Shown here one piece after another: positions 12,960 through 37,085 of a DNA stretch of 37,085 nt. The position numbers and the translations under genes are program-made. The DNA is taken from positions 1 through 37,085 of the IMG/VR virus record IMGVR_UViG_3300032241_000420; one strand, 5' to 3'. This stretch comes from a virus. The notes below the pieces were generated by a model. It saw only the letters and a program-made list of their open reading frames with translations, was not told where the DNA came from and did not search any database. Every line of letters starts with the position of its first letter. Within the stretch, counting starts at the first letter, position 1.

Positions 12960-13306
12960 AGCTCAATAATATCCGATATTTTTCTTTTGTTTCGAAGAAT
13001 TTTATATTTTTCCGCATAATCAGTAGTAGCCTTTAAATGTACATCTACAATTTGATTAAAAAATTCTTGCACATCTGAAACAACAATTGGAAAGTTGTTT
13101 GAATCAACAAACGCAACGTCGGTAGTATGACCTAAATCCAACATTATTTTTGTAAACGAAATTAGGTCAGGAGTAACTTTAAAACTAGCTCCATTTAGAT
13201 AGTGTACTGATTTTTGATTGTATTCTTCTAAAATTATTCTTTTTTGGTTACTCAATGTTGCCATGTAGTTGGCAACAGCAAATGCTTTTTCGATTCTCTC
13301 ATCCAT
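12956..13306 (-). CDS. Conserved small phage protein heading the glycosyltransferase operon
   Basis: 116 residues with GGAG before its ATG. It contains EKAFAVANYMATLSNQKRIILEEYNQKSVHYLNGASF, then SFTKIMLDLGHTTDVAFVDSNNFPI and a long C-terminal helix ending KRKISDIIEL. I recall this sequence type from hypothetical proteins of marine T4-like phages; no function is known to me. It is first in the operon, directly behind a sigma70-type promoter, and overlaps the next gene by ATGA. Confidence 0.75.
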   Translation of the reverse strand: MDERIEKAFAVANYMATLSNQKRIILEEYNQKSVHYLNGASFKVTPDLISFTKIMLDLGHTTDVAFVDSNNFPIVVSDVQEFFNQIVDVHLKATTDYAEKYKILRNKRKISDIIEL

Positions 13307-13317
13307 AGATAAACTCC

Positions 13318-13357
13318 GTAGTGTACTATAATAACACTACAGTAATTAGCTTGTCAA
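13318..13357 (-). promoter_or_regulatory. Sigma70-type promoter with inverted repeat over the -10
   Basis: Read on the minus strand: TTGACA (13357-13352), 18 bp, TATTAT (13333-13328). A perfect 7-bp inverted repeat, GTAGTGT (13318-13324) and ACACTAC (13334-13340), brackets the -10 box and the expected start of transcription. That placement suits a repressor operator, though a hairpin at the mRNA 5' end is also possible. It drives the glycosyltransferase operon away from the tail genes. Confidence 0.7.
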
Positions 13358-13375
13358 GAGATTATGGTTGATGAA

Positions 13376-18413: not shown

Positions 18414-20069
18414 TTATAAATCTTTTTGGTAAACCCACACTAAACTTTGTAATATAAATTGCTTGATGGTTGCGTTATCAATTATAAAAACTCTGCATAA
18501 TGTATTTTCACCATGCTCGCTAACTGGAAAAATCTTGTTAAGATAACTCGTAGGAATATTCAAATTGGCATTTGAAAGGCCTGCAATAGTTACACTAATT
18601 GCCAAATTAGCTGTACTGACTGCTGTGTCCACATAAGATTTATTGGCGGCGTCAGTGGAACTTACCGGTGTTGCTACATTAATAATTGCTTTTGAGTTTA
18701 CATCAACTGAGCCTGTACCTTTTGGATTTAATATTATATTACCATTACCGGCTGGACCAACGTAACTAATAGTGTTAGAACTTATACCAACATAGCCTGC
18801 TTGGAATGAAGTTTGTACTCCAATTTGAGTTAAACCTGGGGCTGTTGTAATACCAGAACCAAGACTAGTTGCTGTTATTACGTCAGCATTATTAATTTTA
18901 TAAGTTTTTCCGCTAGCAAGATTTATATTTTCTGAACTATTCCAACTTAGGTAACTAAGATTCCATTCAAAAGTTTTATCAGTGCTACCGTGCAATATAA
19001 TTCCGCCGCCGTCGGCAGTGGCATCTGTGGGCATACTAGTAGTAGCAAGCTCAATATTTTTATCAGAAACTTGTAATGTGCTAGAATCTACAATAGTGGT
19101 ATTGCCTCGAACAGTTAAATTGCCTTGAACTGTTAGATCTCCATTTACATCCAGTGTACTTTCAGGAGATTCTGTGAATATACCAACACGTTCTAGTTGT
19201 GATTGTATTAAAAATGCCGATGTAATTGCACTTGCGCCATTGTTTACAGTAATTTCAAAATTTTGATTAGTAATATTTGATTGGAGTGTAAACTTAGATA
19301 AATCAACCAACACTTCATTATTACTATTAGCACCCAAAATTAACGGTGTTGCGTTTGCTAAAGTTAATATTCCAGTAGATAAACTATCACCGACTGTTGT
19401 AACAAAATTATCAGCAGTTAAATTTACTGAAGGATCAGATGTTACCAATGCTGTAGCTAAAGATGCTTGTACATAGAATGTGTTATTTGATAATGTGCTA
19501 GCTGTAAATCCTACATTTATAGTTGTAGGCATACCTGGTATTGGTGTTTGAGGTATAAATGTATCTTTGCTAAACACACCTAACAATATATTTGATACTT
19601 TTAAATACACTATTGTATGATTAATTAAGTTAACATCCAAAATATCAACAACAATAAATCCCGACGGGCCTTGAGTTTTTGTATAAATTGGTGCGGCTAA
19701 GATGTTTCCGTTACCAGCATTAAAGTTTAATTGTTCGTTAGCACTGTCAATCCATAAGTCTCCTGCGGCATAACTACTAGGAGGTGTACTAGACACTATT
19801 GTACCTCCACTTACTATAAATTGAGTACCCGTATAAACTTTTAATCTGTTTTCTGTAGTGTCAAACCACAGTTGACCAGTAATTGGATGATTGGGCTGGC
19901 TTACATTAGCAAAATTTTCTAATAAATGAACAAAATTGTCATTGATAAAAAGTCCATACCCTGTAGTATTTTTTCCTATCAAAGTTAAATCAGTAGCAGA
20001 TTGATCAATTGTGCCATCTACAATACTGGTAAGCGAAGTTCCGTTTGTTAAATTAATAGTATAACTCAT
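18414..20069 (-). CDS. Tail fibre protein C (adaptor domain, distinct C-terminus)
   Basis: 551 residues. The adaptor is present but divergent: LIGKNTTGYGLFINDNFVHLLENFAN, P.HPITGQLWFD, LKVYTGTQF. The central part has STLDVNGDLTVQGNLTVRGNTT, a repeat typical of triple-stranded beta fibres, followed by NIILNPKGTGSVDVNSKAIINVATPVSSTDAANKSYVDTAV, a common coiled-coil linker in fibres. The end (SEHGENTLCRVFIIDNATIKQFILQSLVWVYQKDL) is neither the ADLAE tip of A and B nor the collar tip of D. Its ATG overlaps the stop of fibre D (TAATG), so the two are translated together. Confidence 0.83.
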   Translation of the reverse strand: MSYTINLTNGTSLTSIVDGTIDQSATDLTLIGKNTTGYGLFINDNFVHLLENFANVSQPNHPITGQLWFDTTENRLKVYTGTQFIVSGGTIVSSTPPSSYAAGDLWIDSANEQLNFNAGNGNILAAPIYTKTQGPSGFIVVDILDVNLINHTIVYLKVSNILLGVFSKDTFIPQTPIPGMPTTINVGFTASTLSNNTFYVQASLATALVTSDPSVNLTADNFVTTVGDSLSTGILTLANATPLILGANSNNEVLVDLSKFTLQSNITNQNFEITVNNGASAITSAFLIQSQLERVGIFTESPESTLDVNGDLTVQGNLTVRGNTTIVDSSTLQVSDKNIELATTSMPTDATADGGGIILHGSTDKTFEWNLSYLSWNSSENINLASGKTYKINNADVITATSLGSGITTAPGLTQIGVQTSFQAGYVGISSNTISYVGPAGNGNIILNPKGTGSVDVNSKAIINVATPVSSTDAANKSYVDTAVSTANLAISVTIAGLSNANLNIPTSYLNKIFPVSEHGENTLCRVFIIDNATIKQFILQSLVWVYQKDL

Positions 20070-22204
20070 TATAGGACACCAGTAAAAATAATATAGTTTA
20101 TAGTTAGATAAGGATTCATAATATTAACAGCATTACCTGTTTGAGAACTAATCATACTACCAGTTGCAGGTAACCCTGCACCTGTTCCGGTTGTTGCGCT
20201 AGTTATATTTTGAGCATATCTATCTGAAACTGCATTTGGATCATAAGAAGTAGCATAATATTGAATATTGTTTGCACTCTTAAATGTATGTTGATGGTCA
20301 GGTAAATTACTAGTTGTCAATGTCACTTGTGAATTACCAGATCCAGCACCTTGAATATCTGCCGTTACATCTGATACACGATTGGCAGCGCCGCCGCCAG
20401 CACTAATTAGTGTACCACTACCATCTTTGTACGGTACTGTTAGATTGTTATTCATATTATCTTGGCCTAGAGGAAAACGTCCTCTTAGGTCAGGCAATGC
20501 AAATGTACTTAAACCTTGTAATAATGATGCAGATTTATAAGTAAATCCTATAACGCTATACAAAGCAGTATAAGTTGATATAGGAACTTCACTTCCGTCA
20601 CATAACAAATAACCAGAAGGAATTGTTGTTCCTGCAAAGGGAAAGATACAACCAATAGGAACAGTAGCTACATGGTTTAATAAATTTTGTTTTGTTACTT
20701 TTAGTAAACCAGTACCTTCTCTGTAAAGTAATAAATTATCTGAAAAGTTTGTATCAAGCGTTTCTGTTTTAGCAGAAACAATATTTGAACTAATTGTAGT
20801 AGTAAAAACTGCTGAACCAGTTAGCGTTTGGCCGTCAAAACTAATTACATCACTAATTACATCGCCTGTTAAACTAAATTCGGTAGGACTAGCTAGTTTT
20901 GCGGCACTACCATTAACACTTCCAGCTAAACTACCTGTAAAACTTCCATTGAAAGATCCTACAAATGATTGTGCATAGACATTTCTAAAAGGTCTATCAG
21001 AAGATCCAATATCATATAAATTAATTGCATTGCTAGTACCTGGAAGAATAACCGCGCCGGCAGTAGGATTACCGCTAAGTAAATTATTAACTAATATAGT
21101 TCCGTAGGTATTAACATTTCCACCAAAATTACTGTTTAATGCAACACTAAGACCGCCAGCTGTTTGAATACTACCGGTAGTTAAGTTTGTTGAATCAGTT
21201 GTGCTTGTAACAGTTAATCCGCCATCAGATGTAATCAATCCATTAACATCTAAAGTTGAACGTAATACTCCAGTATTGTTTATACCTACTCCTATTTTTC
21301 CTGTAGCATCTAGATATAAAACTGATTGACTGACTCCTCCATTGTTTAATTTAAAAGTTATACTATTTCCACTATTAGTGCTAGTGAGTACTGCCGAACT
21401 ACCAGTAGTTCCAATATTAAAACTTAGATCACTACCAATACTTAATCCTCGAGGATCTCTAATACTGATAGGATAATTGCTTACGCTGGCAATATCAGAT
21501 CTTAAAAAATTAGTGGATGGAATAATTTTATTGTTTAAAAGTAATCCGTCTGCAGACTGTGCAGTACCCCAAAATCTTGTTAGGCCAGTTGATGCATCTA
21601 ATGAGCTTAGGTTCACACCTTCATTGATAGTAGCAAAACCCGGTATAACCAATTTAGGAGTAAACGTATCTTTGCTTATAATACAAATTCTATAACTTGC
21701 CGCTGTACTAGAACTAGTAGCGTAATTTGAAATAACAGTATGTGTGACATTGTTTGTGTCAACAATGCTTTCGACTTGCGGACCAGTTAGTGTACCTTTA
21801 CTAAACTGAGGACCAACTAACAACCAATTAGATCCAGAAAACAAGTATAATTGACTATTTGCTGTATCGACCCATAAATCGCCTTGTAAACTGTTAGCGA
21901 CATCGGGTGCCGTAGCAGATTTTTTTAAACTACCAGCCGAAGTCCATGTTGTGCCATCCCATATCTTTAAAGTACTAACGCTGTTATCATACCATAATTG
22001 CCCTTGAACTGGGTTGCGTGGTGCAATACCGCTAGCAAAATTTTCTAAAAGATGTAAAAAATCTCCAGCTAGTATTGGAGCATATCCAGAATAATTTTGT
22101 CCTACGAAATCTAAACTAGTTTGTTGATTAACAGTCTGATCTTGAACTGTTATAGGAGGTTTAGCTGGGTTAGTTGCTTCTGTAAATGTAACCTGATAAG
22201 TCAT
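20069..22204 (-). CDS. Tail fibre protein D with phage tail collar domain
   Basis: 711 residues. Adaptor: FVGQNYSGYAPILAGDFLHLLENFAS, P.NPVQGQLWYD, LKIWDGTTW. The shaft contains SGNSITFKLNNGG, STLDVNGLITSDGGLTVTS and NGSFTGSLAGSVNGSA. From about 515 a tail collar domain is clear: PIGCIFPFAGTTIPSGYLLCDGSEV, then FALPDLRGRFPLGQDNM, and SNLPDHQHTF, whose H637 and H639 match the HxH that binds zinc in T4 gp12-type fibres. It ends NPYLTINYIIFTGVL, normal for the family. The family role is short-tail-fibre or receptor-binding tip. Ribosome site AAGGGG is seven bases before the ATG. Confidence 0.9.
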   Translation of the reverse strand: MTYQVTFTEATNPAKPPITVQDQTVNQQTSLDFVGQNYSGYAPILAGDFLHLLENFASGIAPRNPVQGQLWYDNSVSTLKIWDGTTWTSAGSLKKSATAPDVANSLQGDLWVDTANSQLYLFSGSNWLLVGPQFSKGTLTGPQVESIVDTNNVTHTVISNYATSSSTAASYRICIISKDTFTPKLVIPGFATINEGVNLSSLDASTGLTRFWGTAQSADGLLLNNKIIPSTNFLRSDIASVSNYPISIRDPRGLSIGSDLSFNIGTTGSSAVLTSTNSGNSITFKLNNGGVSQSVLYLDATGKIGVGINNTGVLRSTLDVNGLITSDGGLTVTSTTDSTNLTTGSIQTAGGLSVALNSNFGGNVNTYGTILVNNLLSGNPTAGAVILPGTSNAINLYDIGSSDRPFRNVYAQSFVGSFNGSFTGSLAGSVNGSAAKLASPTEFSLTGDVISDVISFDGQTLTGSAVFTTTISSNIVSAKTETLDTNFSDNLLLYREGTGLLKVTKQNLLNHVATVPIGCIFPFAGTTIPSGYLLCDGSEVPISTYTALYSVIGFTYKSASLLQGLSTFALPDLRGRFPLGQDNMNNNLTVPYKDGSGTLISAGGGAANRVSDVTADIQGAGSGNSQVTLTTSNLPDHQHTFKSANNIQYYATSYDPNAVSDRYAQNITSATTGTGAGLPATGSMISSQTGNAVNIMNPYLTINYIIFTGVL

Positions 22205-22214
22205 CTATAACCCC

Positions 22215-22823
22215 TTAAACAGTTACTAAGCCTGTTAGGCTTTGAATACGTACAGTATAATCAATTTGGATTAATCTGTTTAGGCTTTTTAATACAGGGT
22301 GAAAAATTACGTGAGTTAGCAATAAAGACGAGCCGTCTGAATTGAGGCTTTGAAGACCTAGTTCATCAAACACATACGTAGATTCATTATTATTAGTTGT
22401 ATCATATGCAGATTGTCCGCTAGGTTCTCCATAATCTAACAAACATGTAACAAAAATATCTGTATAATTTGTACCGGTTACGTGTCTTGTTTCAATAAAA
22501 TTTCTGCTAGGATCAGTATTTGTACTAGAATTATTATTGACTACTTTACTATAAGTTTGGTTATACAAACTTGCATTAGTTCCTGCTGTATTTGGAGTCA
22601 AATATGTAATAATACCTGTAGGATCGATAGCAGTTCCACCGTTACCAAATGCCATATTGTAGATAAAGCCTTGGCCACTATTAGCCATGCTTTCTGCTAG
22701 GGCAACGCTGATGTTCTCGTAATGGATGGCATTACGTTTATTGATGTAAATTTCTTGAGAAACTGGATCCCAAATTTTAATATGTCCTTCAATATGGATT
22801 CCTGTCGAGTCTTTAGTCTGCAT
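22215..22823 (-). CDS. Conserved virion-type protein (baseplate/tail)
   Basis: 202 residues. Blocks are IHIEGHIKIWDPVSQEIYINKRNAIHYENISVALA, FIYNMAFGNGGTAIDPTGIITYLTPNT, ASLYNQTYSKVVNN, DIFVTCLLDYGEPSGQ and LLLTHVIFHPVLKSLNRLIQIDYTVRIQ. I recall this highly conserved protein in structural modules of marine T4-like phages, always near baseplate genes; exact role unknown. It lies between the giant virion gene and the fibre array, 10 bases from fibre D. A GATAAATA box precedes it and the ribosome site is weak (AGAGAGA). Confidence 0.75.
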   Translation of the reverse strand: MQTKDSTGIHIEGHIKIWDPVSQEIYINKRNAIHYENISVALAESMANSGQGFIYNMAFGNGGTAIDPTGIITYLTPNTAGTNASLYNQTYSKVVNNNSSTNTDPSRNFIETRHVTGTNYTDIFVTCLLDYGEPSGQSAYDTTNNNESTYVFDELGLQSLNSDGSSLLLTHVIFHPVLKSLNRLIQIDYTVRIQSLTGLVTV

Positions 22824-22871: not shown

Positions 22872-25800
22872 TTAACTTCTATATTCAGTGTACCAAACAC
22901 CTGGGCTAGATTTTAGGAAATCAGTTATTTTACTAGTATCATTTTGAATATTTACTGTGCTATCCCATACTGTTCCTACACGTGTTGTCACAGTTATTTG
23001 TGTGTTCTCAGGTATAGCATTGGTTAATTGCAACTGATTTGATACGCCATCGACTGTATAATCTGCAGGGAACAAAACATCCCCTGCAGGGCTGTAAGGC
23101 GCTACATTTATATTGTGAACAGAATATGGATTTTTCTTTAATCTAATACCGCCGGCAAATACTTCAACAGCACTCTTAGACAATGTTACTACATCACTGG
23201 CAGTCATTGCTTGTCCTTTGTATGTCCATGAAGTATTAAATCCGCCTGGAACAAATCCTAAATTAACAGTATTAGTACCGTCTGATATAATTTTTTCAGT
23301 AACTGGGGTTTCAGTATACGGAATTGTTTCACTAATTCCTATATCTTGCACAATCGCATTTGCTTTATTCAAATTATAAACTCCAGTACCCAATGTTCCC
23401 CTACGCAACTTGCTTAAAATATTGCCTGATTTGGCAAAATATTCGATACGTTCTCCACGAATTTCAATCACACCTGGTAAATTATATGCAGGATTTGGAG
23501 TACTTAGGTTGCTAGCATCGGTGACTACAATTTGTGTATCATTCCAATGTAAATCTTGCGCTAATAATGTTCTTTTATTAGCACTTAGACGTTTATAAGT
23601 AACACGATTTAACATATCTTTAAATTGCATATATGCAATTCCAGATTTCAACACATTACTACCAAAAGTAATTAAAGTAATTTTATCACCAGCTTCCGGT
23701 GTTGACGATAGTTTTATACTCTGTTTGTCATCATTTAATTTATAATCAATGTTAGGTGTTAACAATGTTGAATTTTTAATAACCCATACAGAACTATCAT
23801 TTGCAATACTTCTATCTAATTTTATTATACCTTCTAAAGTTTCTCTATAATAATAGTAATCCAATGTGTTAGGAGAAAGGCTAGTTGTTGATGAAATTGT
23901 AAATTCTGTACGTTGAATATCTAGTATAGAATGATTGTAAGAACTTATAACTTCAACTATATGTGTATTATCGTACGAGTTTGTAAAAGTAATTGAGCGG
24001 TTAGCACTATTATAAAAATAACTTTCTCCAGTAGTTATGCTTACTGTTAATGTCGTTCCTTTGTAGGCAGTATAGGTTGCTTTAGTTATTTTTATAGTAA
24101 CTCCGCTAGGATCAACAGTATAATCGTTGCCTAATTTTAACAATACACCATTAGCTATAACATTGATTTGCTGTATACTTGCTGAATAACTTGCAATCTT
24201 TGTCGAATCTAATGTATAATTAAGTCTATTATTAGATATAGTAAAATAAGAATTGTTAGGACCATCAAGAATAGTTTGATCTACTCGAACAATCATATTT
24301 GTTTCGGTTGGTAGAGAAATTCCAACAGGATAAATCAAAGGATATGATTTATTAGCTGGTCGTCCATCAGTTGCAATTATTTCACTATTAGTAATAGAAA
24401 ATGTTTGTTCAGCACCACTAACAATAATAAAATTAATCAAACTGTTTGAAGGTGGCGGATTATTAAATTTAATTCCCACAGCATTGGCAAATGCATACGT
24501 ACTATCAGTTTTAAATAATGTAGGATTTGAAACTTCTCCATCAATATATACTAAGCTCGTAACTGGTACTTGCCAAGGTGCTTTAGTAACAAACTCTGTA
24601 GTAACCCCGTCCCCAATGAAGTAATCAAGATCTAAAATATTGGCTCCGTTAAATCCTATATTAAATAAACTAACTAATTCGCCTACAGCCGGAGCCACAT
24701 TTAAATTAATTGTTTTGTTACGATAATCAACAGTATAATCTAATCTTATTGTTTTAATTTCGCCACCAACTTTAACAATAACTGCTTCTGGACTATTAGG
24801 CTGCTGGCCCATTATAAACCCAGTAGTTGTTCCATCTCCAATAAAATTATCTATTCTAATATTAGCAGAACCTGTTGTTGGTCTATCATATACTTTAATG
24901 GCCACAGTATCTACCACTTGTCCTGGAACCACTTCTTCAGGAGCAGGGCTAGTAGTTGGCGTTACTAGACCGTCACCGTCAATGATGATATCATCTGCTG
25001 AAATACCAATAGCAGTACTATATGCTAAATCTCCGCCAGTAATATCAGTATCATAACTATCAGCTGCCGGTGGAACAGAGCCATCACTGGTGCTTTGACG
25101 TAAAATAAATTCATCGCCGTCATTTACTATGAAAGTATTAGGAATTTGAAAAGTTTTTGATGGTTTAGCAGGAGCAGGATTATCTGGAATTCCGTCAGAA
25201 ATTAACGGTAACATTATAGATGTAGTTGGAGCTGTAGGTGTTCCGTATGCAGGACTGTCTAATCTTTCAGGATTCAATTGCCCTGTTACATAAATGTCAA
25301 GCCCGGCAGGAATAGATTGAGTTAAAACAAATGTACCGTTGGCATTGATTATTAAATCTGTTGGCTGTTCTAATGTTCTTGTAAATGTTATCGGAATACC
25401 GTATGAAATTCCAGAATACACTAACTTATTCAAAGTCAAAGTATGTCCATCTGAACCTTTACTCACAACTGTTGTTCCTTCTACAAATACTGATGTAGGA
25501 AGGCTTGGACATTGTACAAGATCATTTAAATTAACATGTGTTATATCTGCTATAGATATTTGATTACTTCCAGCAAATCCAAATGTAAATGTTAAAGTTC
25601 CGCTAGGAATACTGTCTGGATTTCTGTTTAATACAACTGTATTAGTTTGAAGATTGACAGAAGTAACAGTATGAGGATTAGATCCTTTGATTGTTCCGGT
25701 TTGTGTTTTTGTACCAGTAGCTGTACTAGAGTAACTTACAGTGCCTGGTATTACCGGCAGTACATTTGGATTGCCTGCTGTACAAGCTGTAACTATATAA

Positions 25801-28800
25801 GTTCCGTTGTAAGCTGTTGGGTTGGTTGCATTGTCACTTAACACATTGTTCACAGTAATTTGTTGTCCAATAGTATAAGGTGGCGCAGATTGCGGGTCAA
25901 ATGTTAACGTTGCTGTTGTGCCATCGCCTGATGTGCCAGTGACAGTAAGTACTGCAACATTAGAAGCAAATCCAATGCCAACTATACCCATGCCTGCAAC
26001 TATCCCAGCGACATTGTTAACAACCAATATATTGTCATAACTACCATTTGAATTATAAGTTGTTTGAATACCATATGCTGTTTGATTATTTACAGTAGTG
26101 ACTACTGGAGTATTATCAAGTATATTGAAATTGTATTCCTTAGCAATGCCATCTGATACAAATGGTCCTTCTACATTATTTTTTACGTGATAAACGTTAA
26201 TTTCTGTTCCGTTAGCAGGTACATACGGTAACGTAAATGAGTGTGTTCCAGCAGATACCGTTACAGCAAAGTCAGTATATTGGCTGTTATAAGATGAATC
26301 CCATTTATCTTTGTAGTAAGGTAGCGATCCCCAGCCTGTTTGGATGTTAAAACCTAGACCATCAACAATAACACCGCCATAGTCTATGCCTGTCATTAAC
26401 TGTGAAAGATCCTTACCTAGTTGGCCGGTTGTTGGATTATAATAAAATTCAATACGATCAGCGGCTGTTAATAAAGATTCATCAATCAAATATGTAACTA
26501 CAATTTGAGAATCATATGCAGGTGCAAAGTCTACATTAAATGTTAATAATCCCGAGTATTGTGTATAACTAGGAAGTTGAGCTGTTGATACACTAGAAGT
26601 TTCAACAACAGATAACGTGTATATTTCTCTTAGTTGAGGAATACTATTTACAGTTACACTGAAAGTTCCTACACGCACATCAGGAGCCCATTTTAATTTA
26701 AATGTTAATAAACTTCCTGTTCCTGTAAATGTTTCAACTTGTTGTAGTTGTGTTATATAATTAGTAGCAGATGTACGATCAAAACGCATACCAACTAAAG
26801 ATGAACGTATAACGCTATCTCCAATAATAGCTATAGCTCGGGCCGCCACGCCACCTTGCTCAAGGCCGCCGTCAATAATAACTTCAGGAGCACTTAGATA
26901 ATTACTTCCCGGAGTTAGCAATACAATACGATTAACTGTTCCGTTACTAATAAACGCTCTAGCTGTAGCTCCTGTTCCACTATCACTAACAATAGTCACA
27001 ACAGGTTCTGTAATATACCCAGAGCCACCCGAAGTTAACACAAGTTTAGTTATTGTAAATCCAACATTATCTAACCAGAATTTCCAAGGATAGTTTTGAA
27101 TATTTGAATCAGTAGCAACTATTTTTCCATTAACTACATTTGTATTAATTAAAGAAATAGCTCCATTTTCAAAAATTGGCATTAGATCAAAATCTGTAAT
27201 AGGCAGCTGAGCTGTATCTAAACTATCATAGTTGCTAACATATTCTCTAACTTTAGTTTTATATGGTTTAACTTCGCTGATATAATCTTCAAAATTAGCC
27301 AAGTTATCAACAGGATAATTTACAGGTTGGTCTAGGGCTCCAACATTGTGTTGTGCTTTAACAAAACTAGTCTTAAAAATCCAATCAATATACGGTTGTT
27401 CACTGTATGCATATTTTACACTGTTAAAGAATAAATTTAAATATTCTTGTTTAAGTTCATTTGTAAGAATATTATTTTTAATAGTATCTAAAATAATTCT
27501 TAATTCTATTCCAGCAACAATGTCGAATGATTCCCCGTCAAAAATACTTGAATCGTACCCAATGACTGTGTTAGAAAAATCATAAAGAGCACTGCTGAAC
27601 TGCATAGTTCCACTTTGTATGCCCACTGTTGCATAAGATTGTGTCCAATCAATGCTTGTACTGTCAGCATATTTGTATAATAATACCCAACCACCAGAGC
27701 CAACATTTCGTACCTTAACAGTTTGTCCTACAAAAGCAGTTATACTGTTTAAATCTACTAAAGTTGCTACTGAAAAATCTGCGGCAGTAAATTGACTTGC
27801 TGTGAATAATGTTCTAGATGTTGTAGGATCTGAATACGATCCGTACCAATCTGCATACTTCCAATAATTTCTTACATCATAACCTTGTGTTAAAATTCTA
27901 GACCAAAGTTTAGAGCTAGTATCATACGTATAGATACTCCAATTACCGCTAGCTTGACTATCACTATGTACTAATACACTATAACTTCTGACCACGCACT
28001 GTGTATTAAAATCATAGCCTTCGCCTGACGATATAACTTTAGCTCCAACAATTTGTCCTGCAGAATTAATAATTGATTTAACAACTGCACCTTGACCTGA
28101 TCCTACAATTTCGATGTATGGGCTCGTTGATGTTCCGTTTATAGAACTAATATAGCCTCGGCCTGCATTTAAAATATTAACACCCGTAATTCTTCCATCT
28201 TCTATGATAGGAGTTAATTCAGGAACAGTAAATGATATTACATTAATATATGATAATTCAGAATCCACATTAAGTATAGCATCATACAGACCTGTAATTA
28301 TTGTGGGTTCTTTGTCATAGGATTCTAAATTACTAATATCATAAGATTCGACAATTTGATTTGCCATCATTATCTGATTGACATACTCAATGAATTCTTT
28401 TAATGACTCAAGTCTGTTAACAAACATACTTTGTCTAGGTCTATTTTCAATGCCGTAACGTAATTTAATAGGTAGTGATGGATCGGGCACTAGTCTACCT
28501 GCAGAATCGACTCCGCATAAACTATCAATCCATTTTTGTTCAATAGTTTTTGGCAAATCTATATTTGGATCATTGCTTATTAGTTTATATTGATTGTGAA
28601 CATTTTGGGTTGTGTTTGTTGAAGTCCAATATTCTACAGACAATACTATATCCGTTGATGTTAGGTATTGTTTAACATTAGCTAGACTAAATGTGTTTAA
28701 ACCTGTTAAAGCTAGATAGGTATATCCTTGACCGCGTGGGCTTTGAATTAAACTAGCAACATCCTTGGCTGACATATTTCTGCCTTGAATGTTAGGAGTT

Positions 28801-31800
28801 ACTGATTTATTTTTAACCCAGAAATAATATATATTTTTAAAAGACTTACTAATTTTATCATATGTTTGTTTTGTAGAATAGACTGTATCACCATATAGAC
28901 TCTTTCCACTTATGCCAGTAGTTAAACCGGCAGCAGTATCAGCTTGAGCATCCCACTGGCTAGGTTTTAAATTAGTAGTTACCCATTCGTAAACATCGAT
29001 ACTTGCACCGGCAGCTAGTTGATTCCAAACTGCATTTCGATAAACTAAGTCTTGATCGTAGCTGTTGATGAATTTAGCAGTTCGTAAATCCCACCACAAC
29101 ATACCAACTTGTTGGTCAGTCCAAGACATCGAATTGTCTACCGTTACTGAACTTGTACCCAAAGAGTACACCGCAGGATCATAGAATGTTTTATACTTGA
29201 TTTCTTCTTCGGCAGGTCCAGCAATCTTACCTTGCAAAGGATCGATAACGTCTAAGTAAGTGACTAATGTTCCAGATGATCGATTATATAAAAAGGCTTT
29301 CTTAATCCTTGTAACATCTGGGATAGCTATTTGATTACTACGAACTTTCCAACTATAAGTATTAGCAGTTTTGCTATAATTATAAATTTTACCCGAAACT
29401 ATACCCTGATCAATAGCATACGGCGCACCAACAAATATTTGATTGTTAGCCACTGCTAGACCTGTACCATATCCATCATTTTCAGTACTGGTAGTAGTTA
29501 ATGATTCGCTATAAACCCACTTAGTGGCATATCTATCATAGATATCTACTCTACCACTGTTAATTTGATTAGTAACAAATGTAGTTGAATTTTTATCAAA
29601 TGTAGTTGAATTTTTATCAAATGTAGTTGAAGTTTGCGTATCACCATTTAAACTATAAACAACTAGTGTAGATGCGTTATTCATAAAGAACACTTTGTTA
29701 CCAAATCTTCCTGTAAATTCTGGTCGATTATCAACAATGTCTTGATATTTTATATAAGAATCATTAACGTATGAATACACACCAACTGATCCAGCTTGAT
29801 TAATTGTTGTTGTGCTAGTCAGGTCATCGCTAATAGCAAGGTATGTACCATCATCTGATAATGCAAGACTACATCCAAAACGTGAATCAATTCCTGTTAA
29901 TGTTTGAATTAAATTAAAAACAGAATTTGTTTTTTTATAAACATACACATTTTGCTGAGAATTAGTAGCTAATGTTGAACCATCGGCACTAATCTCTATC
30001 ACATTTCCAAAATTACTGTTAGTTGTAATTGTAGTTGGAGCTGTTAGTACTCCGTCATAAATCCAACTGACTGTTACAAAAGTTAGCAATCCTGATGGGG
30101 TACTATCTGGGGCATTACTAATAAGAAGAGTAGTATTACTTAATACTGAAAATACATATTGCCCGCTAGTAAATCCTGTTCCTTGTACAAACATGTCTGG
30201 AACAATACCTGCCGTACTAGTTACAGATATCACATAGCCGTTAGATGTTAATCCGCTTCCAACCGGATTGTATGCTGAATATATAGGATTAAATGTCGAA
30301 TAAATTAATTTATAGACAGTTCCAGTATTAGTACTGTTACCAACTGCACCAATGTATAATTCGTTATTGCTAAAAATTAAAGATGATCCAAATTGTTCGT
30401 TATCACTAGGTACTGGACTTACAATAGAATCAACTAATGTGTAATTATTATTTGCATTTTTCTTGTAAAGGCTAATAACACCTTGTGCTGGATGGCTACT
30501 ATTGTAGTTAGTACTTGTTGCATCAACCGGCAAATAAGGTAATTTTTTCCAAGCAGATACTCCAGTATTAGATATAATAGTACCATCAGCATGTATAGTT
30601 AAAATTAAATCATTTATGATATCTGAGCCACCAACTAAACTTCCTTTAATCAAAATCTTATCATTATCAAAGTAACCAGTACCGTTAGCATTTAAGCTCA
30701 CTGTGTAACCAGTAATTGTTGGTGTTACATTAAATGTTGCATTTACACCCAAGTCTACGCTACCTGATAAACCACTGTAAGTTTTCAATGGAGTCGTACC
30801 CGATAGTGCCGATGTTGATACTATAGTAGATCCTGTAACATTTACCGTAAAAGTAATATCATCAACAGAATCGATACCGCCTAATGCAGATCCTAATATT
30901 CGAATAACGTTACCTTGTTTATAACCTGCGCCGCCTGAAATTATCGTTATTGTTTTAGTATTATCCGTATGTACTACTACTGTAAATCTTGCACCTTGTG
31001 CTTGATTAATAGTTGTTCCAGATACTGCAATGTATTCAGCTGATAAGTTATTAGGAGTTTGATAATAGTCATTTCCTGATTTAACAATATCACCAGCAAG
31101 ATAAGGAGCCGCATGAGTTACAAGTCTAGTGGCTATATAACCTGCTTGAGGGCTTCCTGTGGCCATCCATTGGCTATCATCACTCATTGCTATTACATTA
31201 GCTATTATACTTGATCGATTAACATTTATAGATAGTACGCTGATTGTAAAACCTGAACCTGTTCCGCCGATTGCAGATGAATTAACACTTAATGAATCAT
31301 TGGTTTGATAATTTACACCGCCATTAATTAATTGAACCCTAACTACTTGTCCATTTTTAACAAAAATATTTGCAACTGCACCTGACCCATTTCCGCCCGT
31401 TAATGGTACATTAGGATAGATTACAGTTCCACTAGCAGGCGTGTATAATGATCCAAAATTTACAATACTAGCTAGTTCAGAAATAGTTCCGCGAGTAGAT
31501 CCTACTGTATAATTTGTCGACAATTCAGGTTGCGGTAAAATTTGAGTTCCTGACCAACCTGTGAGCGCACCGTATCTAGAATAGATAGTTGTTTGACCAT
31601 CACTTGTGCTATATGCCATTATATTACCAAGATTATTCATAGCAATAGTATTGCCATAATTATAACCTAGTTGTGGTGAAGAATTAGTTATAGGAGTTAA
31701 ATTGTATACTGTATTATAAATCCAAACAGCCCAACTGCCATCTTCAGGTAAAGTATTATCTGTCCATAGTAATTCTCCTGCATTTAATTTTAATGGAAGG

Positions 31801-34800
31801 ATTGTAGACAAATCATCTATAGAAGTTTTTAATCTTTGAGGAGTTAACGCATAAACTGTTATAGTATTCAAATCATTAAAAGGTGCAAATGCTGACAAGG
31901 TTGCATTTACTGAAAATGAGTTTAAATTAACATTTGCTATAGAATAAAAACCATTTATATGTGTGGTTTGTGTAATACCTACATAGGACCCTACTGTTAG
32001 TGTAACTAATCTATCCGTAGTAATGGTTAAAACTTTTGAAGGTGTATCATAAGTAACTGCTGTAATTTTTAAATTTACATCAGTAAATCTATATACATTC
32101 CAACTTGCACCTTCAAATGCACACCAAATATAGCTACCGTTTGTTAACACAGTTGGATCCTGACTCAAGACTGCATTAGTATTACCAATACTCAATTGTA
32201 CATCAGAAGAATTTACATAACCCGCTGTTCTTAAGAATGGTTTATAAGAACTTAATTGAGGCCATGGCTGTGAATTATATCCGTTAGTCGCCAAATAAAC
32301 ATTATTAGGTGTTATTTGAACAATAAACGTATTAATTGAATTGTCTAGTTTATTCAACAAATCATATGCTTGCGGATTATTTTTAACTAGCCCTTCATCA
32401 AGAATAAATTCAATTTGTTCAAATGCTCGAGATGCGCCATACTGGCCAACACGGATTGCCCATTCTTCATAAAATACTAAACTTTCTTTATTTTCACTGC
32501 TTAATACATTAAACAACTTGTTAAGAACATTTTGCGTTCCTTTTTCACGAATCATCCCTTGATAGAATTTAAATTCGCTAACATCATCTTGAATAATATT
32601 ATCTAGATATTGACGTTTCTGATAACCAACTAAATGTTGTGCCATAGTTTGTTGTGCTGAATCAAAACTATCTACGTCAAGACTATAAAAATCTGTAAAC
32701 TGAGTGGCAATATTAGTCCAATTAGGTAATATTTGAGGTTTAGGTTTTGTTGCTAATTGTGACCAATTGGTGGAAACAAATGTAGAAGATCCTGGTAAAA
32801 ATTCATTGGCACTATAATAATAGCCTTGATAGTTTACAATATCTCCCATATTGTAATCTTGCCACGGTTGCCATGCTTGAATACCTGCTTGGTCAAATAT
32901 AAATCCTGGAATATCTAATCCGCCATACCAACCAGTGGTTATATATCCCGATATTTTAATACGTTCTTGTCTATATCCACTTTCTGGATTATAGATTGTA
33001 TCATTGAATATAGTATTATTATCTACAATGATTACATGTTCATGCTGAATAAGATAAAAACTAGCACCATATATACCGTCAGTTGTTCTTGGATTATAAG
33101 TTACAACATTGTTCTTTCTATATGAATCTAAATCATTAGGAGGTAATGCTGTACCATCAACTTTAACAATTTCATAACTATTAAATTGATTGCCAATATC
33201 ATCAACTACTGATAAGTTAGCTGTAAATGTTATATTATCTGCGCTAGGACTTAAACTAATCACACTTGCACCGTCGATGCTGAGTCCGTCTAGTCTGGTA
33301 TAATCATTAATATCAAACACGTCTGTAGCGGCAATATTTCGATTGGCACTATAATAGACACCATTAAATCTAACAATAGTTCCGTACTGTACTGGATTAT
33401 TTGGAGACCAATCACTCCATTTATCTTTTCCTGTACTCCAATTTTGAGTGGTCCAGAACATAAATTCTTTTGCACTAGTTTCCCAGTTAGTTACTAAACC
33501 TAGGTTACTATTAAATTCGTTAAAACTAAATCCTTGATCTTTTAACCACTCTCCGTAACCAATTATAAAATCAACTACTTCTTGTATTGTTTTAAACTCT
33601 GTACCGTACGGTGCTACAATTTCAGTAGTTTTATCCCATAGTTTTCTAAATATAGCGTTAACTCCGCCAATTACTGGCAAAGATGCTAAACTAGCAAATT
33701 TAGTAGGATCAAATGTATTAGATGCTGTTGTTAAAGTTATTGTTTTAAAATAGCCACCGTTATACTGTACAATCGATCCTGGTGTATATTGTTGACCTGG
33801 TGTCCATGTTGAATAACTGTCAGATATTCCGCCTACATTAATAGATGCACCTGATTGCAAATAATTATAATATTTAAAATAAGGTTGTGTTTGACTGTAT
33901 CCAGAAACTTGGAATCCGCCTTGAAGTCGTGTAATTATAATACCACTATAACTTAATTTTAAAACTGGGCTGGATTTATTTAAAAAGATTTTATAATTTT
34001 CTTGTGGAATAAAAACACTGCCAGTACTACTAGGTGTTTTACTATCTAATAGTAAATTAAACTGATCTTTATTGCTAAATGCACCTATACGATAACTCAA
34101 CTGAGTATTCATTGTCATCAAATCAGTCAAATAACCTTCGTAAGATTTTTTGTTATTACTAAAAATATAATTTAGAATAAGATCAACAACATAATTAACA
34201 ATGCCCGCAGTTTGTACTTGTGTAGTACTTGAATACACACTTGGTAATTTAATATCTTGCGGACGAATTCTTAATCCAGTATCAAGATAAACAAGTTGTC
34301 CTGCTAAATTTCTTATGATTCGACTTCTATCTAATAGTAAACCAAACGTACTGGCTGGAGTTAATAACATGCTAGTTATTAGCACACTAAATGGATAATG
34401 GCTACTACGTCTCCACGCGGCTTCCACTGGGCCAACATCACCAAAAACAAAATTGAGATCTGTACTGGCTGTAATAAGTCCTTGTGCTAATCCTGATTGA
34501 ATTGGACTAATAAGATTACCTGATTCATCAACAGGAATATGTTGCATCAAGAAAGGTTTGGCATATTTGGTTAACTTAACTGGAGCGGCTGTTGGATCTC
34601 TTAATATACCATCGGCAATATCTTGCCACATTACACGATTGTCGCTAGTGTACGGAGCAGGACCATATACACTTGTCCACCACGAAGGTTCAATACTAAA
34701 CCCTAACATTTCCCAAGGACAAATATTAGGACGATCTGTATCTAGCAACCAACGATATACTCCTCTCCAATAACCTGGAATAACAGATCCGTCTGGTGCA

Positions 34801-37085
34801 TAATTACTAGAGTAGTTATAAGTAAATGTATTATTAATATCATAGCTAAGTGGTTTAGTAAAATCACTTCCTACTATTTTGGCCCAACGATAAAAATTTG
34901 GCGCCAACACGCTATTAAATTCTTCTCTACTATAATCTGTTTTTCTGTTGTATCCTGGAATTACATTAGCAATATCAAAAATTGCTGTATCATAACTAAC
35001 TTTTATATTGTTAAAAATTCTCTTTTCTAATTCTAAAATTAAATCATCTCTGTAATCGCCATAGGCTAATACTTGACTACCATCGTGTCCTTGAATCATC
35101 ATTTGAGGGGCTACAAGTGTAGTATCAAGATAAATTTTAGGTGCATACTTTGGCCACATGCCTAATTTAGTAGGTGTAGACGGAACAAAACATCCGTTAG
35201 TATTTTCATATTCATAAGTTGTAATAGTATCGCCGTTAGCAAATGCTAAAGAGGAGTCCATTACTACAAATCCTTGATTATCAAATGTATAATCTTGTCC
35301 GTAAATTAATTGAATACCATTTAGATAAACACCAACTGCTTGGGTAGATAATGTATTCAATGTAAAAACTTTAGATAACGGATATGTCTTAATACGATAA
35401 TCTACTACTGTTAAATCTGTTCTAATATTGGCACCATAAGGAACCATATCACTAAAATAATAAGGTGCAGTATTTGGTCTATCTTTATTAATTTTTTGTA
35501 AAATAGTATCAACTATTGTCACAGGGTCGCCGTCAATACCTAAATTTTCAGCAGTGTTTAAAAATATTCTTTTAAAATTATTATAGTCATCTCTACTTTG
35601 TTCTATAGCTCTAACAATATTATTAGATTCGCTAGTAATGTGATATAAAGATAAACTCATTGGACTACTATGTTGTACAAATTTAACACCGTACTGAGTT
35701 ACATTACCTAAATCTCTTAAATTACTATTGCCCGGAAACGATCCTGTAAAGGTGGTTAAATTATCTACAATTGAATTTACATGATCAATAACTTCGCCTA
35801 ACGTAAAATCAGACATGGCATTATTCAAAGGATTATTTTGTAAATTTACAGGTATTTCATAATAGCCTTTGTCATTTATAGGCTGTGCAGAAAATGCTCT
35901 AATGGTCAACACATCTGTTACCGCTATAGGAGTGTTTAGCACTACTTGCTTGTATTCCTGAGCAGTTGTCAAAGTCCATAATGTCGAATTTAGTCTTATT
36001 CCGTTAACATATACTCTTACTACCAGATCTTCTAAATTATTAATATCATCGTAAATGTCAACATTAAAATTATTTGTTTGATTAGTATTTTTATAAATTC
36101 TAACGGCTGCTTGAATTGTAGTTGCATTACAAGTTTGCCATCCATTAACATAAACAGGATTACCAGCAAAATCTTGGCTAGACAAATACCCTACATTAAT
36201 ATTTTTTGTTACTAAAGAAGTTGTTTCTTTGTATTCAAAACTGTCTGTTATAAGGTTAAAATTAAAAACTATGTCGCCGATGTTGCTGACGTTTTTGTAA
36301 CTTAATGGAAATCCTAAGATTGAATCTGAAACACCAGTACCAACTTTATAAGAAAAGACAGGAGTTCCTGCAAAAGTAGATCCGCTGTACACTGATGTAT
36401 CTCCGAAACTCACAGCATTACTATCTACTATATCAAACATAGGAGGCTGATTAGTATTAGTTTTTTGTTGAGCTAGTTGCCAACTAGTGCCGTTATACCA
36501 ATACATTAAACTTTGATTTTTTAAACCTTCAGTTATTAAAATTACTTGATTAATTTCAGGACTTGCTACTTCTACTAGATTAATTTGACTGCTGTTATTT
36601 TGATTTAAATGTAATACGTCAACAAATTCTACTCGATATATCTTATTACGTACTAAAGGATCTGTATCGGCTGTAAACAATATAGTCTGCCCTTGAGTAA
36701 GAGAGACTCCATCGATACTATAACCAAATGCTCCTTCTATAGTAGAAAATACATCTGTGGTATGTGTATCAATTAAATTTACATCTGCTATAGCATGAGT
36801 ACCAAAATTAAATAATTTTAAATCAGCATTAAATTCTATAATAGGTCTAACTGCTCTAGCCAATTGATTTAAAGTTGGAACAGATCCATTAAACTTAGCC
36901 GAAGCTGATATTACATCTGCATGAAACCATCGATTGTATCTACTCCAAGGATTATGATCCTTACTAGCTCGATTAATTACAATATAATCAGCTACGCTTG
37001 CATAACCTGTAGCATCACTAAAAGGTTCTATATCAAAAGGACTATTATCAAATTCAATAGCTTCAGAAGTAGTATAAGGACTAAC
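22872..37085 (-). CDS. Giant modular virion protein, over 4,730 residues (5' end outside window)
   Basis: The frame is open from 22872 to the window edge: reading upstream of the TTG at 36863 gives 74 more sense codons, including ASVADYIVINRASKDHNPWSR and RWFHADVISASAKFN, so the real start lies outside. The N-terminal 1,100 residues (ARAVRPIIEFNADLKLFNFG, DTDRPNICPWEMLGFS, PSWWTSVYGPAPYT) match my memory of a giant structural protein of large marine phages. Next come three carbohydrate-binding-like modules (32750-33806), an FG-GAP-like propeller (29400-31680), several GG.GY beta repeats, and C-terminal F.GDGTT..F strand repeats with IEIRGERIEYFAKSGN..SKLRRGTLGTG. No protease or lysozyme motif was seen. 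Its place before the fibre array suggests a baseplate, tail-tip or long-fibre role. The exact T4 counterpart cannot be told from sequence. Confidence 0.85.
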   Translation of the reverse strand, partial: VSPYTTSEAIEFDNSPFDIEPFSDATGYASVADYIVINRASKDHNPWSRYNRWFHADVISASAKFNGSVPTLNQLARAVRPIIEFNADLKLFNFGTHAIADVNLIDTHTTDVFSTIEGAFGYSIDGVSLTQGQTILFTADTDPLVRNKIYRVEFVDVLHLNQNNSSQINLVEVASPEINQVILITEGLKNQSLMYWYNGTSWQLAQQKTNTNQPPMFDIVDSNAVSFGDTSVYSGSTFAGTPVFSYKVGTGVSDSILGFPLSYKNVSNIGDIVFNFNLITDSFEYKETTSLVTKNINVGYLSSQDFAGNPVYVNGWQTCNATTIQAAVRIYKNTNQTNNFNVDIYDDINNLEDLVVRVYVNGIRLNSTLWTLTTAQEYKQVVLNTPIAVTDVLTIRAFSAQPINDKGYYEIPVNLQNNPLNNAMSDFTLGEVIDHVNSIVDNLTTFTGSFPGNSNLRDLGNVTQYGVKFVQHSSPMSLSLYHITSESNNIVRAIEQSRDDYNNFKRIFLNTAENLGIDGDPVTIVDTILQKINKDRPNTAPYYFSDMVPYGANIRTDLTVVDYRIKTYPLSKVFTLNTLSTQAVGVYLNGIQLIYGQDYTFDNQGFVVMDSSLAFANGDTITTYEYENTNGCFVPSTPTKLGMWPKYAPKIYLDTTLVAPQMMIQGHDGSQVLAYGDYRDDLILELEKRIFNNIKVSYDTAIFDIANVIPGYNRKTDYSREEFNSVLAPNFYRWAKIVGSDFTKPLSYDINNTFTYNYSSNYAPDGSVIPGYWRGVYRWLLDTDRPNICPWEMLGFSIEPSWWTSVYGPAPYTSDNRVMWQDIADGILRDPTAAPVKLTKYAKPFLMQHIPVDESGNLISPIQSGLAQGLITASTDLNFVFGDVGPVEAAWRRSSHYPFSVLITSMLLTPASTFGLLLDRSRIIRNLAGQLVYLDTGLRIRPQDIKLPSVYSSTTQVQTAGIVNYVVDLILNYIFSNNKKSYEGYLTDLMTMNTQLSYRIGAFSNKDQFNLLLDSKTPSSTGSVFIPQENYKIFLNKSSPVLKLSYSGIIITRLQGGFQVSGYSQTQPYFKYYNYLQSGASINVGGISDSYSTWTPGQQYTPGSIVQYNGGYFKTITLTTASNTFDPTKFASLASLPVIGGVNAIFRKLWDKTTEIVAPYGTEFKTIQEVVDFIIGYGEWLKDQGFSFNEFNSNLGLVTNWETSAKEFMFWTTQNWSTGKDKWSDWSPNNPVQYGTIVRFNGVYYSANRNIAATDVFDINDYTRLDGLSIDGASVISLSPSADNITFTANLSVVDDIGNQFNSYEIVKVDGTALPPNDLDSYRKNNVVTYNPRTTDGIYGASFYLIQHEHVIIVDNNTIFNDTIYNPESGYRQERIKISGYITTGWYGGLDIPGFIFDQAGIQAWQPWQDYNMGDIVNYQGYYYSANEFLPGSSTFVSTNWSQLATKPKPQILPNWTNIATQFTDFYSLDVDSFDSAQQTMAQHLVGYQKRQYLDNIIQDDVSEFKFYQGMIREKGTQNVLNKLFNVLSSENKESLVFYEEWAIRVGQYGASRAFEQIEFILDEGLVKNNPQAYDLLNKLDNSINTFIVQITPNNVYLATNGYNSQPWPQLSSYKPFLRTAGYVNSSDVQLSIGNTNAVLSQDPTVLTNGSYIWCAFEGASWNVYRFTDVNLKITAVTYDTPSKVLTITTDRLVTLTVGSYVGITQTTHINGFYSIANVNLNSFSVNATLSAFAPFNDLNTITVYALTPQRLKTSIDDLSTILPLKLNAGELLWTDNTLPEDGSWAVWIYNTVYNLTPITNSSPQLGYNYGNTIAMNNLGNIMAYSTSDGQTTIYSRYGALTGWSGTQILPQPELSTNYTVGSTRGTISELASIVNFGSLYTPASGTVIYPNVPLTGGNGSGAVANIFVKNGQVVRVQLINGGVNYQTNDSLSVNSSAIGGTGSGFTISVLSINVNRSSIIANVIAMSDDSQWMATGSPQAGYIATRLVTHAAPYLAGDIVKSGNDYYQTPNNLSAEYIAVSGTTINQAQGARFTVVVHTDNTKTITIISGGAGYKQGNVIRILGSALGGIDSVDDITFTVNVTGSTIVSTSALSGTTPLKTYSGLSGSVDLGVNATFNVTPTITGYTVSLNANGTGYFDNDKILIKGSLVGGSDIINDLILTIHADGTIISNTGVSAWKKLPYLPVDATSTNYNSSHPAQGVISLYKKNANNNYTLVDSIVSPVPSDNEQFGSSLIFSNNELYIGAVGNSTNTGTVYKLIYSTFNPIYSAYNPVGSGLTSNGYVISVTSTAGIVPDMFVQGTGFTSGQYVFSVLSNTTLLISNAPDSTPSGLLTFVTVSWIYDGVLTAPTTITTNSNFGNVIEISADGSTLATNSQQNVYVYKKTNSVFNLIQTLTGIDSRFGCSLALSDDGTYLAISDDLTSTTTINQAGSVGVYSYVNDSYIKYQDIVDNRPEFTGRFGNKVFFMNNASTLVVYSLNGDTQTSTTFDKNSTTFDKNSTTFVTNQINSGRVDIYDRYATKWVYSESLTTTSTENDGYGTGLAVANNQIFVGAPYAIDQGIVSGKIYNYSKTANTYSWKVRSNQIAIPDVTRIKKAFLYNRSSGTLVTYLDVIDPLQGKIAGPAEEEIKYKTFYDPAVYSLGTSSVTVDNSMSWTDQQVGMLWWDLRTAKFINSYDQDLVYRNAVWNQLAAGASIDVYEWVTTNLKPSQWDAQADTAAGLTTGISGKSLYGDTVYSTKQTYDKISKSFKNIYYFWVKNKSVTPNIQGRNMSAKDVASLIQSPRGQGYTYLALTGLNTFSLANVKQYLTSTDIVLSVEYWTSTNTTQNVHNQYKLISNDPNIDLPKTIEQKWIDSLCGVDSAGRLVPDPSLPIKLRYGIENRPRQSMFVNRLESLKEFIEYVNQIMMANQIVESYDISNLESYDKEPTIITGLYDAILNVDSELSYINVISFTVPELTPIIEDGRITGVNILNAGRGYISSINGTSTSPYIEIVGSGQGAVVKSIINSAGQIVGAKVISSGEGYDFNTQCVVRSYSVLVHSDSQASGNWSIYTYDTSSKLWSRILTQGYDVRNYWKYADWYGSYSDPTTSRTLFTASQFTAADFSVATLVDLNSITAFVGQTVKVRNVGSGGWVLLYKYADSTSIDWTQSYATVGIQSGTMQFSSALYDFSNTVIGYDSSIFDGESFDIVAGIELRIILDTIKNNILTNELKQEYLNLFFNSVKYAYSEQPYIDWIFKTSFVKAQHNVGALDQPVNYPVDNLANFEDYISEVKPYKTKVREYVSNYDSLDTAQLPITDFDLMPIFENGAISLINTNVVNGKIVATDSNIQNYPWKFWLDNVGFTITKLVLTSGGSGYITEPVVTIVSDSGTGATARAFISNGTVNRIVLLTPGSNYLSAPEVIIDGGLEQGGVAARAIAIIGDSVIRSSLVGMRFDRTSATNYITQLQQVETFTGTGSLLTFKLKWAPDVRVGTFSVTVNSIPQLREIYTLSVVETSSVSTAQLPSYTQYSGLLTFNVDFAPAYDSQIVVTYLIDESLLTAADRIEFYYNPTTGQLGKDLSQLMTGIDYGGVIVDGLGFNIQTGWGSLPYYKDKWDSSYNSQYTDFAVTVSAGTHSFTLPYVPANGTEINVYHVKNNVEGPFVSDGIAKEYNFNILDNTPVVTTVNNQTAYGIQTTYNSNGSYDNILVVNNVAGIVAGMGIVGIGFASNVAVLTVTGTSGDGTTATLTFDPQSAPPYTIGQQITVNNVLSDNATNPTAYNGTYIVTACTAGNPNVLPVIPGTVSYSSTATGTKTQTGTIKGSNPHTVTSVNLQTNTVVLNRNPDSIPSGTLTFTFGFAGSNQISIADITHVNLNDLVQCPSLPTSVFVEGTTVVSKGSDGHTLTLNKLVYSGISYGIPITFTRTLEQPTDLIINANGTFVLTQSIPAGLDIYVTGQLNPERLDSPAYGTPTAPTTSIMLPLISDGIPDNPAPAKPSKTFQIPNTFIVNDGDEFILRQSTSDGSVPPAADSYDTDITGGDLAYSTAIGISADDIIIDGDGLVTPTTSPAPEEVVPGQVVDTVAIKVYDRPTTGSANIRIDNFIGDGTTTGFIMGQQPNSPEAVIVKVGGEIKTIRLDYTVDYRNKTINLNVAPAVGELVSLFNIGFNGANILDLDYFIGDGVTTEFVTKAPWQVPVTSLVYIDGEVSNPTLFKTDSTYAFANAVGIKFNNPPPSNSLINFIIVSGAEQTFSITNSEIIATDGRPANKSYPLIYPVGISLPTETNMIVRVDQTILDGPNNSYFTISNNRLNYTLDSTKIASYSASIQQINVIANGVLLKLGNDYTVDPSGVTIKITKATYTAYKGTTLTVSITTGESYFYNSANRSITFTNSYDNTHIVEVISSYNHSILDIQRTEFTISSTTSLSPNTLDYYYYRETLEGIIKLDRSIANDSSVWVIKNSTLLTPNIDYKLNDDKQSIKLSSTPEAGDKITLITFGSNVLKSGIAYMQFKDMLNRVTYKRLSANKRTLLAQDLHWNDTQIVVTDASNLSTPNPAYNLPGVIEIRGERIEYFAKSGNILSKLRRGTLGTGVYNLNKANAIVQDIGISETIPYTETPVTEKIISDGTNTVNLGFVPGGFNTSWTYKGQAMTASDVVTLSKSAVEVFAGGIRLKKNPYSVHNINVAPYSPAGDVLFPADYTVDGVSNQLQLTNAIPENTQITVTTRVGTVWDSTVNIQNDTSKITDFLKSSPGVWYTEYRS
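29400..31680 (-). other. FG-GAP-like beta-propeller region in the giant protein
   Basis: Blade-like repeats include NYGNTIAMNNLGNIMAYS, FGSSLIFSNNELYIGAV, FGNVIEISADGSTLATN, RFGCSLALSDDGTYLAIS, RFGNKVFFMNNASTLVVYS and GYGTGLAVANNQIFVGAPYA. The FG....s.dg..l..ga pattern is that of integrin-type FG-GAP propellers. The repeats are interrupted by inserted GG.GY beta domains. Boundaries approximate. Confidence 0.65.
29576..29631 (-). repeat. 21-bp tandem repeat, 2.7 copies, in frame
   Basis: The + strand unit caaatgtagttgaattttta plus t occurs at 29576-29596 and 29597-29617 exactly, with 14 bases of a third at 29618-29631. It encodes TTFDKNS repeats in the giant protein between two propeller blades. 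Length changes by whole units keep the frame. Confidence 0.95.
32750..33806 (-). other. Three carbohydrate-binding-like modules in the giant protein
   Basis: Three segments share W....Y..G.IV.YNG.YY.A followed 12-20 residues later by a W/F and L: WTPGQQYTPGSIVQYNGGYF (33690-33806), WSPNNPVQYGTIVRFNGVYY (33289-33420) and WQDYNMGDIVNYQGYYYSAN (32750-32880). This is the signature of chitin/cellulose-binding CBM5/12-like modules often found in phage fibres. Assigned by motif only. Confidence 0.6.

Follow-up and report, generated by a model that had tools for sequence, protein, structure and literature searches.

The giant open frame at the right end of the window, by which we mean the whole 37,085-base stretch of viral DNA analysed here, probably encodes a scaffold protein of the baseplate wedge into which adhesive modules have been inserted, in a phage akin to the Atu_ph07/Phosso, PA5oct, SCTP-2 and RaK2/121Q groups; we set the probability of this reading at about 65%. 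The frame (22872..37085, minus strand) runs for 4,737 residues (519 kDa) without a stop and leaves the window at the right edge, its 5' end lying beyond, in agreement with the original prediction of more than 4,730 residues running past the window. The share of about 38% (14,214 of 37,085 bases) had also been given correctly. The whole IMG/VR record comes to no more than 37,085 bases and is evidently a genome fragment with genes cut at both ends, so this share is an accident of the contig ends and uninformative about the genome. At the left edge the cut gene is a QueE-like radical SAM frame (1-438, plus strand). Residue 32 of the window protein corresponds to residues 363-392 in most complete relatives (337 in L080 and L081, 188 in L051), which means that some 333 residues are missing from the window and that the whole protein can be estimated at about 5,070 aa. 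The frame of L051 (2378-16564) begins some 180 residues further in than those of the other relatives, either because its start is shortened or through an error in the sequence. Judged from the sequence, the giant frame is a coding gene under purifying selection; the differences against five relatives concentrate at codon position 3 (0.276/0.206/0.476 in L006). It matches the profile of PHROG 10938, virion structural protein (phrog_10938), with an E of 1.3e-279 in five stretches.

Jumbo phages are already known to have proteins of this kind, annotated as ‘virion structural protein’ or ‘hypothetical’, and the available text of the literature searched yielded no description of their modules. New here are the assignment to the gp7 slot, the full length, the anatomy of blocks and slots, and the confirmed propeller. 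A scan of IMG/VR gave 277 relatives, and the best 80 of these were kept (the tag ‘freshwater-type’ on IMG/VR relatives is a working label and not based on habitat). The frame is complete in 39 of the best 80, with 4,190-5,229 aa and 33 distinct proteins, and reaches the sequence end in the remaining 41; for seven records with a flank-cut frame, open frames of 5,267-5,681 residues are counted. The first 1,000 residues of the giant protein gave matches in 57 phage records. Homologues in isolated jumbo phages span 3,323-4,555 aa (Phosso 4,555, Atu_ph07 4,449, PA5oct 3,857, SCTP-2 3,807 and 121Q 3,323 aa) and have their blocks in the same order as the window protein. The raw HSPs against Phosso, Atu_ph07, PA5oct and SCTP-2 are collinear in 18 cases out of 19, with a single weak piece in Atu_ph07 out of line, and only this raw list counts as evidence, since the later chaining enforces collinearity. 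A scan of genome contigs returned ten loci, each on a MAG contig and spread over several phyla; four have complete frames of 3,942-4,221 aa. The ten are best read as binned phage from which no host can be deduced. One Neomarinimicrobiota MAG holds two contigs (L095 and L097) with a giant frame of 5,267 residues in each, which could be a single phage that was assembled twice, or twice binned with the bacterial genome. Among predicted viral structures there were 46 matches at E 0.001 or better (50 rows listed); those listed include the Atu_ph07 structural protein (E 3e-46), proteins of uncultured phages, one with 62-72% identity, and the 750-residue entry A0A2Z5HGI1.

The position of the gene points to the baseplate. 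In Phosso, PA5oct, Atu_ph07, 121Q, CBB and RaK2 it comes directly after the baseplate-wedge gene, apart from one intron-associated gene that lies between the two in 121Q. The wedge gene is of the gp6 type by name in 121Q and by size and place in the other five isolates. In all six a gp25-sized gene precedes the wedge gene, unnamed in the records of Atu_ph07 and RaK2; gp182 of Atu_ph07 is counted as a wedge subunit in the available text on that phage (PMC6102473). The gene upstream of the giant gene in SCTP-2 is an unannotated 3,096-aa frame, with no named gp6, and in the IMG/VR relative L034 a PHROG scan gave the order gp53, gp5 lysozyme, gp25, gp6, giant gene. In T4 the place directly behind gp6 is that of gene 7; for the window protein this evidence comes from relatives, the window's own upstream side being cut off. 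Searched at E 1, a profile built from six gp7 proteins of the T4 type matched in none of six jumbo genomes and did match in the T4 control. The hhalign probability of homology to T4 gp7 stayed below 1% in six of six comparisons, made with thin profiles (Neff 2.5-3.3) and with block A left out. Membership of the T4 gp7 family is thus not shown, and the giant protein may still work like gp7. Paralogy between its N-terminus and that of gp6 was also considered, and the profile comparison gave no match.

Downstream in the window come a protein of the phrog_11259 family and then proteins of the collar and fibre type. The former (22215..22823, minus strand; 202 aa) belongs to a family whose genes lie close to the giant gene in jumbo phages, and no PDB relative was found for it; the latter begin with a 711-aa tail-collar-domain protein (20069..22204, minus strand; PF07484, 66.1 bits). 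Two adjacent fibre-like proteins (14400-16415 and 16457-18370, minus strand) have C-terminal matches in common (phrog_6427 and phrog_22593), and the first of them has a Peptidase_G2 match just under the cut-off (24.7 versus 25 bits), a domain described as an autoproteolytic cleavage domain. In 121Q, CBB and RaK2 (L086, L088 and L113) a ClpA-like protease gene lies on the opposite strand directly after the giant gene. Further to the left in the window, seven consecutive open frames (9058-14368, minus strand) had no PHROG or Pfam match, and the GC content of 9001-13000 (0.285-0.340) is below that of most of the window. A 229-aa thymidylate synthase frame (7676-8365, plus strand), possibly an interrupted gene, matches only positions 377-578 of an 866-position profile; its 3' end overlaps a convergent frame (8334-8963, minus strand) that resembles homing endonucleases.

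The alignments divide the giant protein into conserved blocks separated by variable stretches, all on the minus strand. Block A covers residues 1-620 (35226..37085), block B residues 600-1180 with the motif PWEMLGF (33546..35288), block C residues 1440-1620 with FKFYQGMIREKGT (32226..32768), block D residues 2575-2860 (28506..29363) and block E residues 3190-3330 with EVKPYKTKVREY (27096..27518). The conserved N-terminal part that had been noted earlier is borne out, as residues from about 32 to 1576 align to the isolates, with gaps at the second and third of the carbohydrate-binding-like modules described below. Each block recurs in IMG/VR relatives and isolates (16-19 of 21 mapped relatives); PA5oct, Atu_ph07 and SCTP-2 dropped out of the block C alignment, although their HSPs extend to at least window residue 1576. 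An anchored 250-residue stretch of D measures 232-259 aa in 37 of the 39 complete proteins, and an anchored 80-residue stretch of E measures 78-86 aa, also in 37 of 39. The spacer between C and D varies from 244 to 1,570 aa (34 proteins; 1,040 aa in the window protein) and what follows E measures 536-1,638 aa (37 proteins). Spacer values are absent for up to five of the 39 because the chaining rule rejected overlapping pieces, and the 39 include near-identical loci. Constant blocks next to such variable spacers suggest a fixed framework that carries slots of free length. When the C-D slot of eight proteins was scanned, FG-GAP was found in three (the window protein and L059 above the cut-off, L048 below it), CBM5/12 below threshold in L044, an unrelated sub-threshold match in Atu_ph07, and no match in Phosso, PA5oct and L067, so the contents of the slot appear to differ between relatives. 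Profile searches of the PDB gave nothing meaningful for blocks A, C, D and E and the N-terminus, and for block B only chitin-binding domains and related phage chains. When members of block C and those of the N-terminal part were scanned against Pfam, the only matches were weak and scattered, and self-BLAST showed no match for internal repeats. A likeness of the KGT motif of block C to the P2 gpI proteins gained no support.

The carbohydrate-binding-like modules that the original prediction placed in this protein have been found again in the N-terminal core, with the fold of CBM5/12 seen for two of them. The model of residues 395-1592 is moderately confident (mean pLDDT 60). For folding, the first alignment took in 36 of 44 candidate relatives; 30 passed for the second, from which L053 was left out to give 29 relatives, the rejects having mapped too little or contained X. 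At E 0.001 or better, the PDB yielded no match to the modelled core as a whole. The structure comparison re-examined Foldseek matches, which makes absence from its lists uninformative. Residues 551-629 (35199..35435, minus strand) are modelled as a beta-sandwich of a type widespread among the tail-fibre and baseplate proteins of phages, with the best match in TSP4 of CBA120 (7rfv, Z 8.8, rmsd 1.9 over 64) and further ones in the baseplates of P1 (9vzk, Z 7.8) and T4 (5iv5_B, Z 6.3). Module 1 (residues 1091-1135; 33681..33815, minus strand) resembles CBM5/12 in both fold and sequence. The sequence evidence is suggestive: 23.9 bits to PF02839, under the Pfam cut-off of 26.2, and a family profile that matches chitin-binding proteins with a best E of 2.3e-4. 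Its fold matches 3wx7 (Z 6.8, rmsd 1.3 over 45). Module 2 (residues 1221-1267; 33285..33425, minus strand), an insertion relative to four isolates, was recognised by fold, in 8fqc_P1 (Z 7.7, rmsd 1.1 over 45) and in chitinase C (1wvv, Z 5.5, rmsd 2.1 over 46). The best Z values of the two modules, 6.8 and 7.7, lie below 8, as the module is small, and hence below the level trusted alone, and for module 1 the sequence agrees with the fold. Residues 1399-1444 (32754..32891, minus strand), another insertion against the four isolates, are likely a third such module by sequence pattern and order of strands and helices; there was no separate fold match for it. These modules are putative binders of chitin or a related glycan.

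The propeller in the C-D slot has been confirmed. In the model of residues 1690-2880 (mean pLDDT 66.5), residues 1792-2580 (29346..31712, minus strand) form a beta-propeller whose best match is an integrin alpha subunit of the FG-GAP type (alpha-M, 7usl_A; Z 29.1, rmsd 2.8 over 342 residues). WD40 and G-beta propellers score within one Z unit of it, and assignment to the integrin type therefore depends on the FG-GAP_2 profile, which gives 23.8 bits on the propeller region alone (cut-off 23) and 19.2, below the cut-off, on the whole protein. From the matched chains the propeller would have seven blades; its sequence has six [FY]G blade starts. The integrin calcium motif DxDxDG has no match in residues 1792-2580. 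An insertion inside the propeller (residues 2016-2177; 30555..31040, minus strand) is modelled with low confidence (pLDDT below 50, model residues 327-488). Of the beta repeats that had been predicted, the one beta-sandwich described above is confirmed by fold, while those of the C-terminal region (residues 4078-4470; 23676..24854, minus strand), with the pattern FIGDGxTTxF, stand as sequence patterns only. They are followed by a conserved piece (residues 4483-4570; 23376..23639, minus strand) with GERIEYF..LRRGTLGTG, 38.6% identical to residues 3712-3797 of the PA5oct protein (E 1e-10).

We hypothesize that one copy of the giant protein per baseplate wedge would join gp6 as the third wedge subunit and would link the hub and sheath to the periphery of the tail. 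The CBM5/12-like modules, the propeller and the C-terminal beta domains would then project outward, where they may hold fibres or bind glycans or proteins of the host surface, and a contact made by them would be passed on to the wedge. The contact with gp6, the presence of six copies and any binding by the modules are inferred. The available text on phage XM1 describes its (gp16)2-gp17 as homologous to the (gp6)2-gp7 of T4, with a gp17 that has 242 residues, against the 1,032 of T4 gp7, and that holds the tail spikes at the periphery (PMC10457771). There is thus a precedent for a third wedge subunit that differs in size between phages and bears parts used in host contact. The giant protein is best understood as such a subunit taken to an extreme, with a framework in the wedge and modules outside. 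It is a much more tentative thought, one we would bet against while still finding it worth stating, that the baseplate wedge of these jumbo phages has itself become the adhesin. A chain of about 550 kDa in six copies would unite a gp7-type scaffold with exchangeable glycan- and protein-binding modules in fixed slots, host recognition would be built into the contraction trigger and not hung on it by fibres, and recombination in the slots would re-tool the wedge.

The place behind gp6 could also be operon context only, and the protein an adhesin or a whisker-like fibre fixed elsewhere on the tail. The adhesive module content would suit such a fibre. According to the available text of the respective papers, CBB has hair-like appendages whose protein its authors leave unnamed (PMC5259590), and phAPEC6 bears similar fibres (PMC7247149). 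Against this, the adjacency to gp6 is kept in six distant isolates, no gp7 is detectable, and the giant gene is also present in GAP32, which the CBB paper suggests, in the part available, to be possibly without whiskers (PMC5259590). We therefore find this unlikely and keep to the wedge scaffold with inserted modules.

There are reports of the giant protein's homologues in virions. The record of PA5oct gp355 carries the note ‘ESI-MS/MS’. CBB_236, whose gene place was confirmed in L088, is among the virion proteins in the available text on CBB with the values 21 and 7.72 (PMC5259590), which we read as peptides and percent coverage. In that on phAPEC6, a phage 98.94% identical to 121Q, gp245 is a ‘hypothetical protein’ of 381.88 kDa with 17 unique peptides and 7.6% coverage, and it comes after the 131-kDa wedge protein gp244 (PMC7247149). 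The computed mass of 121Q gp582 is 382 kDa, and gp245 can safely be taken as a homologue of the giant protein. The original prediction had argued from the length of the gene for a strong structural or host-contact role. The structural part of this is supported by the virion reports for homologues and by the place of the gene among baseplate genes in relatives; the argument from length alone is weak, since a gene of about 15 kb makes up a few per cent of the genomes of isolated jumbo phages (285-490 kb). A role in host contact is plausible from the modules. Long variable slots separate the blocks, and one could imagine a precursor that, once assembled, is cleaved to give a wedge part (blocks A-C) and at least one adhesin part at the periphery. 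The low peptide coverage of the homologues (7.72 and 7.6) is compatible with this and is no sign of cutting, the mass in the phAPEC6 table equals the calculated one and does not settle the question, and no evidence of cutting was found. We regard a precursor as quite improbable. That two genes were joined into one frame during assembly or sequencing, a suggestion whose sole support is that the window is a metagenomic fragment, can be discarded in view of the 39 complete frames of 4,190-5,229 aa (33 distinct proteins) in the best 80 relatives and the same block order in isolated phages.

A family that has carried uninformative names thereby gains a position (the gp7 slot), an anatomy of fixed blocks and variable slots, and a role open to test. 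Should the slots be sites of host contact, a comparison across the many metagenomic relatives would show how binding changes while the tail stays the same.

The folds of the integrin alpha-subunit propeller and of the CBM5/12 chitin-binding modules both recur in the giant protein, where both are modules of a phage protein and the propeller lacks the calcium motif. With T4 gp7, a baseplate-wedge protein of 1,032 aa, the giant protein shares the gene place after gp6, but sequence homology went undetected in six of six hhalign comparisons. T4-type gp7 also bears the motif SNDGGQTW, which we take to be an Asp-box of a propeller. The place after gp6 is shared with Escherichia phage 121Q gp582 (and phAPEC6 gp245), RaK2 ORF070 and CBB_236 as well, which at 3,323-3,340 aa are the smallest version, with a C-D slot of 244 aa in 121Q, the ClpA-like gene directly next and the phrog_11259 gene further on. 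Pseudomonas phage PA5oct gp355 (3,857 aa) has all of blocks A-E and the C-terminal LRRGTLGTG piece, but it is 34% identical and its C-D slot measures 357 aa as compared with 1,040 in the window protein. Agrobacterium phage Atu_ph07 gp180 (‘structural protein’, 4,449 aa) and Sinorhizobium phage Phosso 294 (‘structural protein’, 4,555 aa) differ from the window protein in having 31-32% identity over the aligned part, a C-D slot without an FG-GAP match and a shorter part after block E, and they resemble it in the place after the wedge gene, in the same blocks and in having phrog_11259 close by. ORF58 of Sinorhizobium phage AP-J-162, in the available text on that phage, is likewise a ‘structural protein’, of 4,455 aa (PMC11242549).
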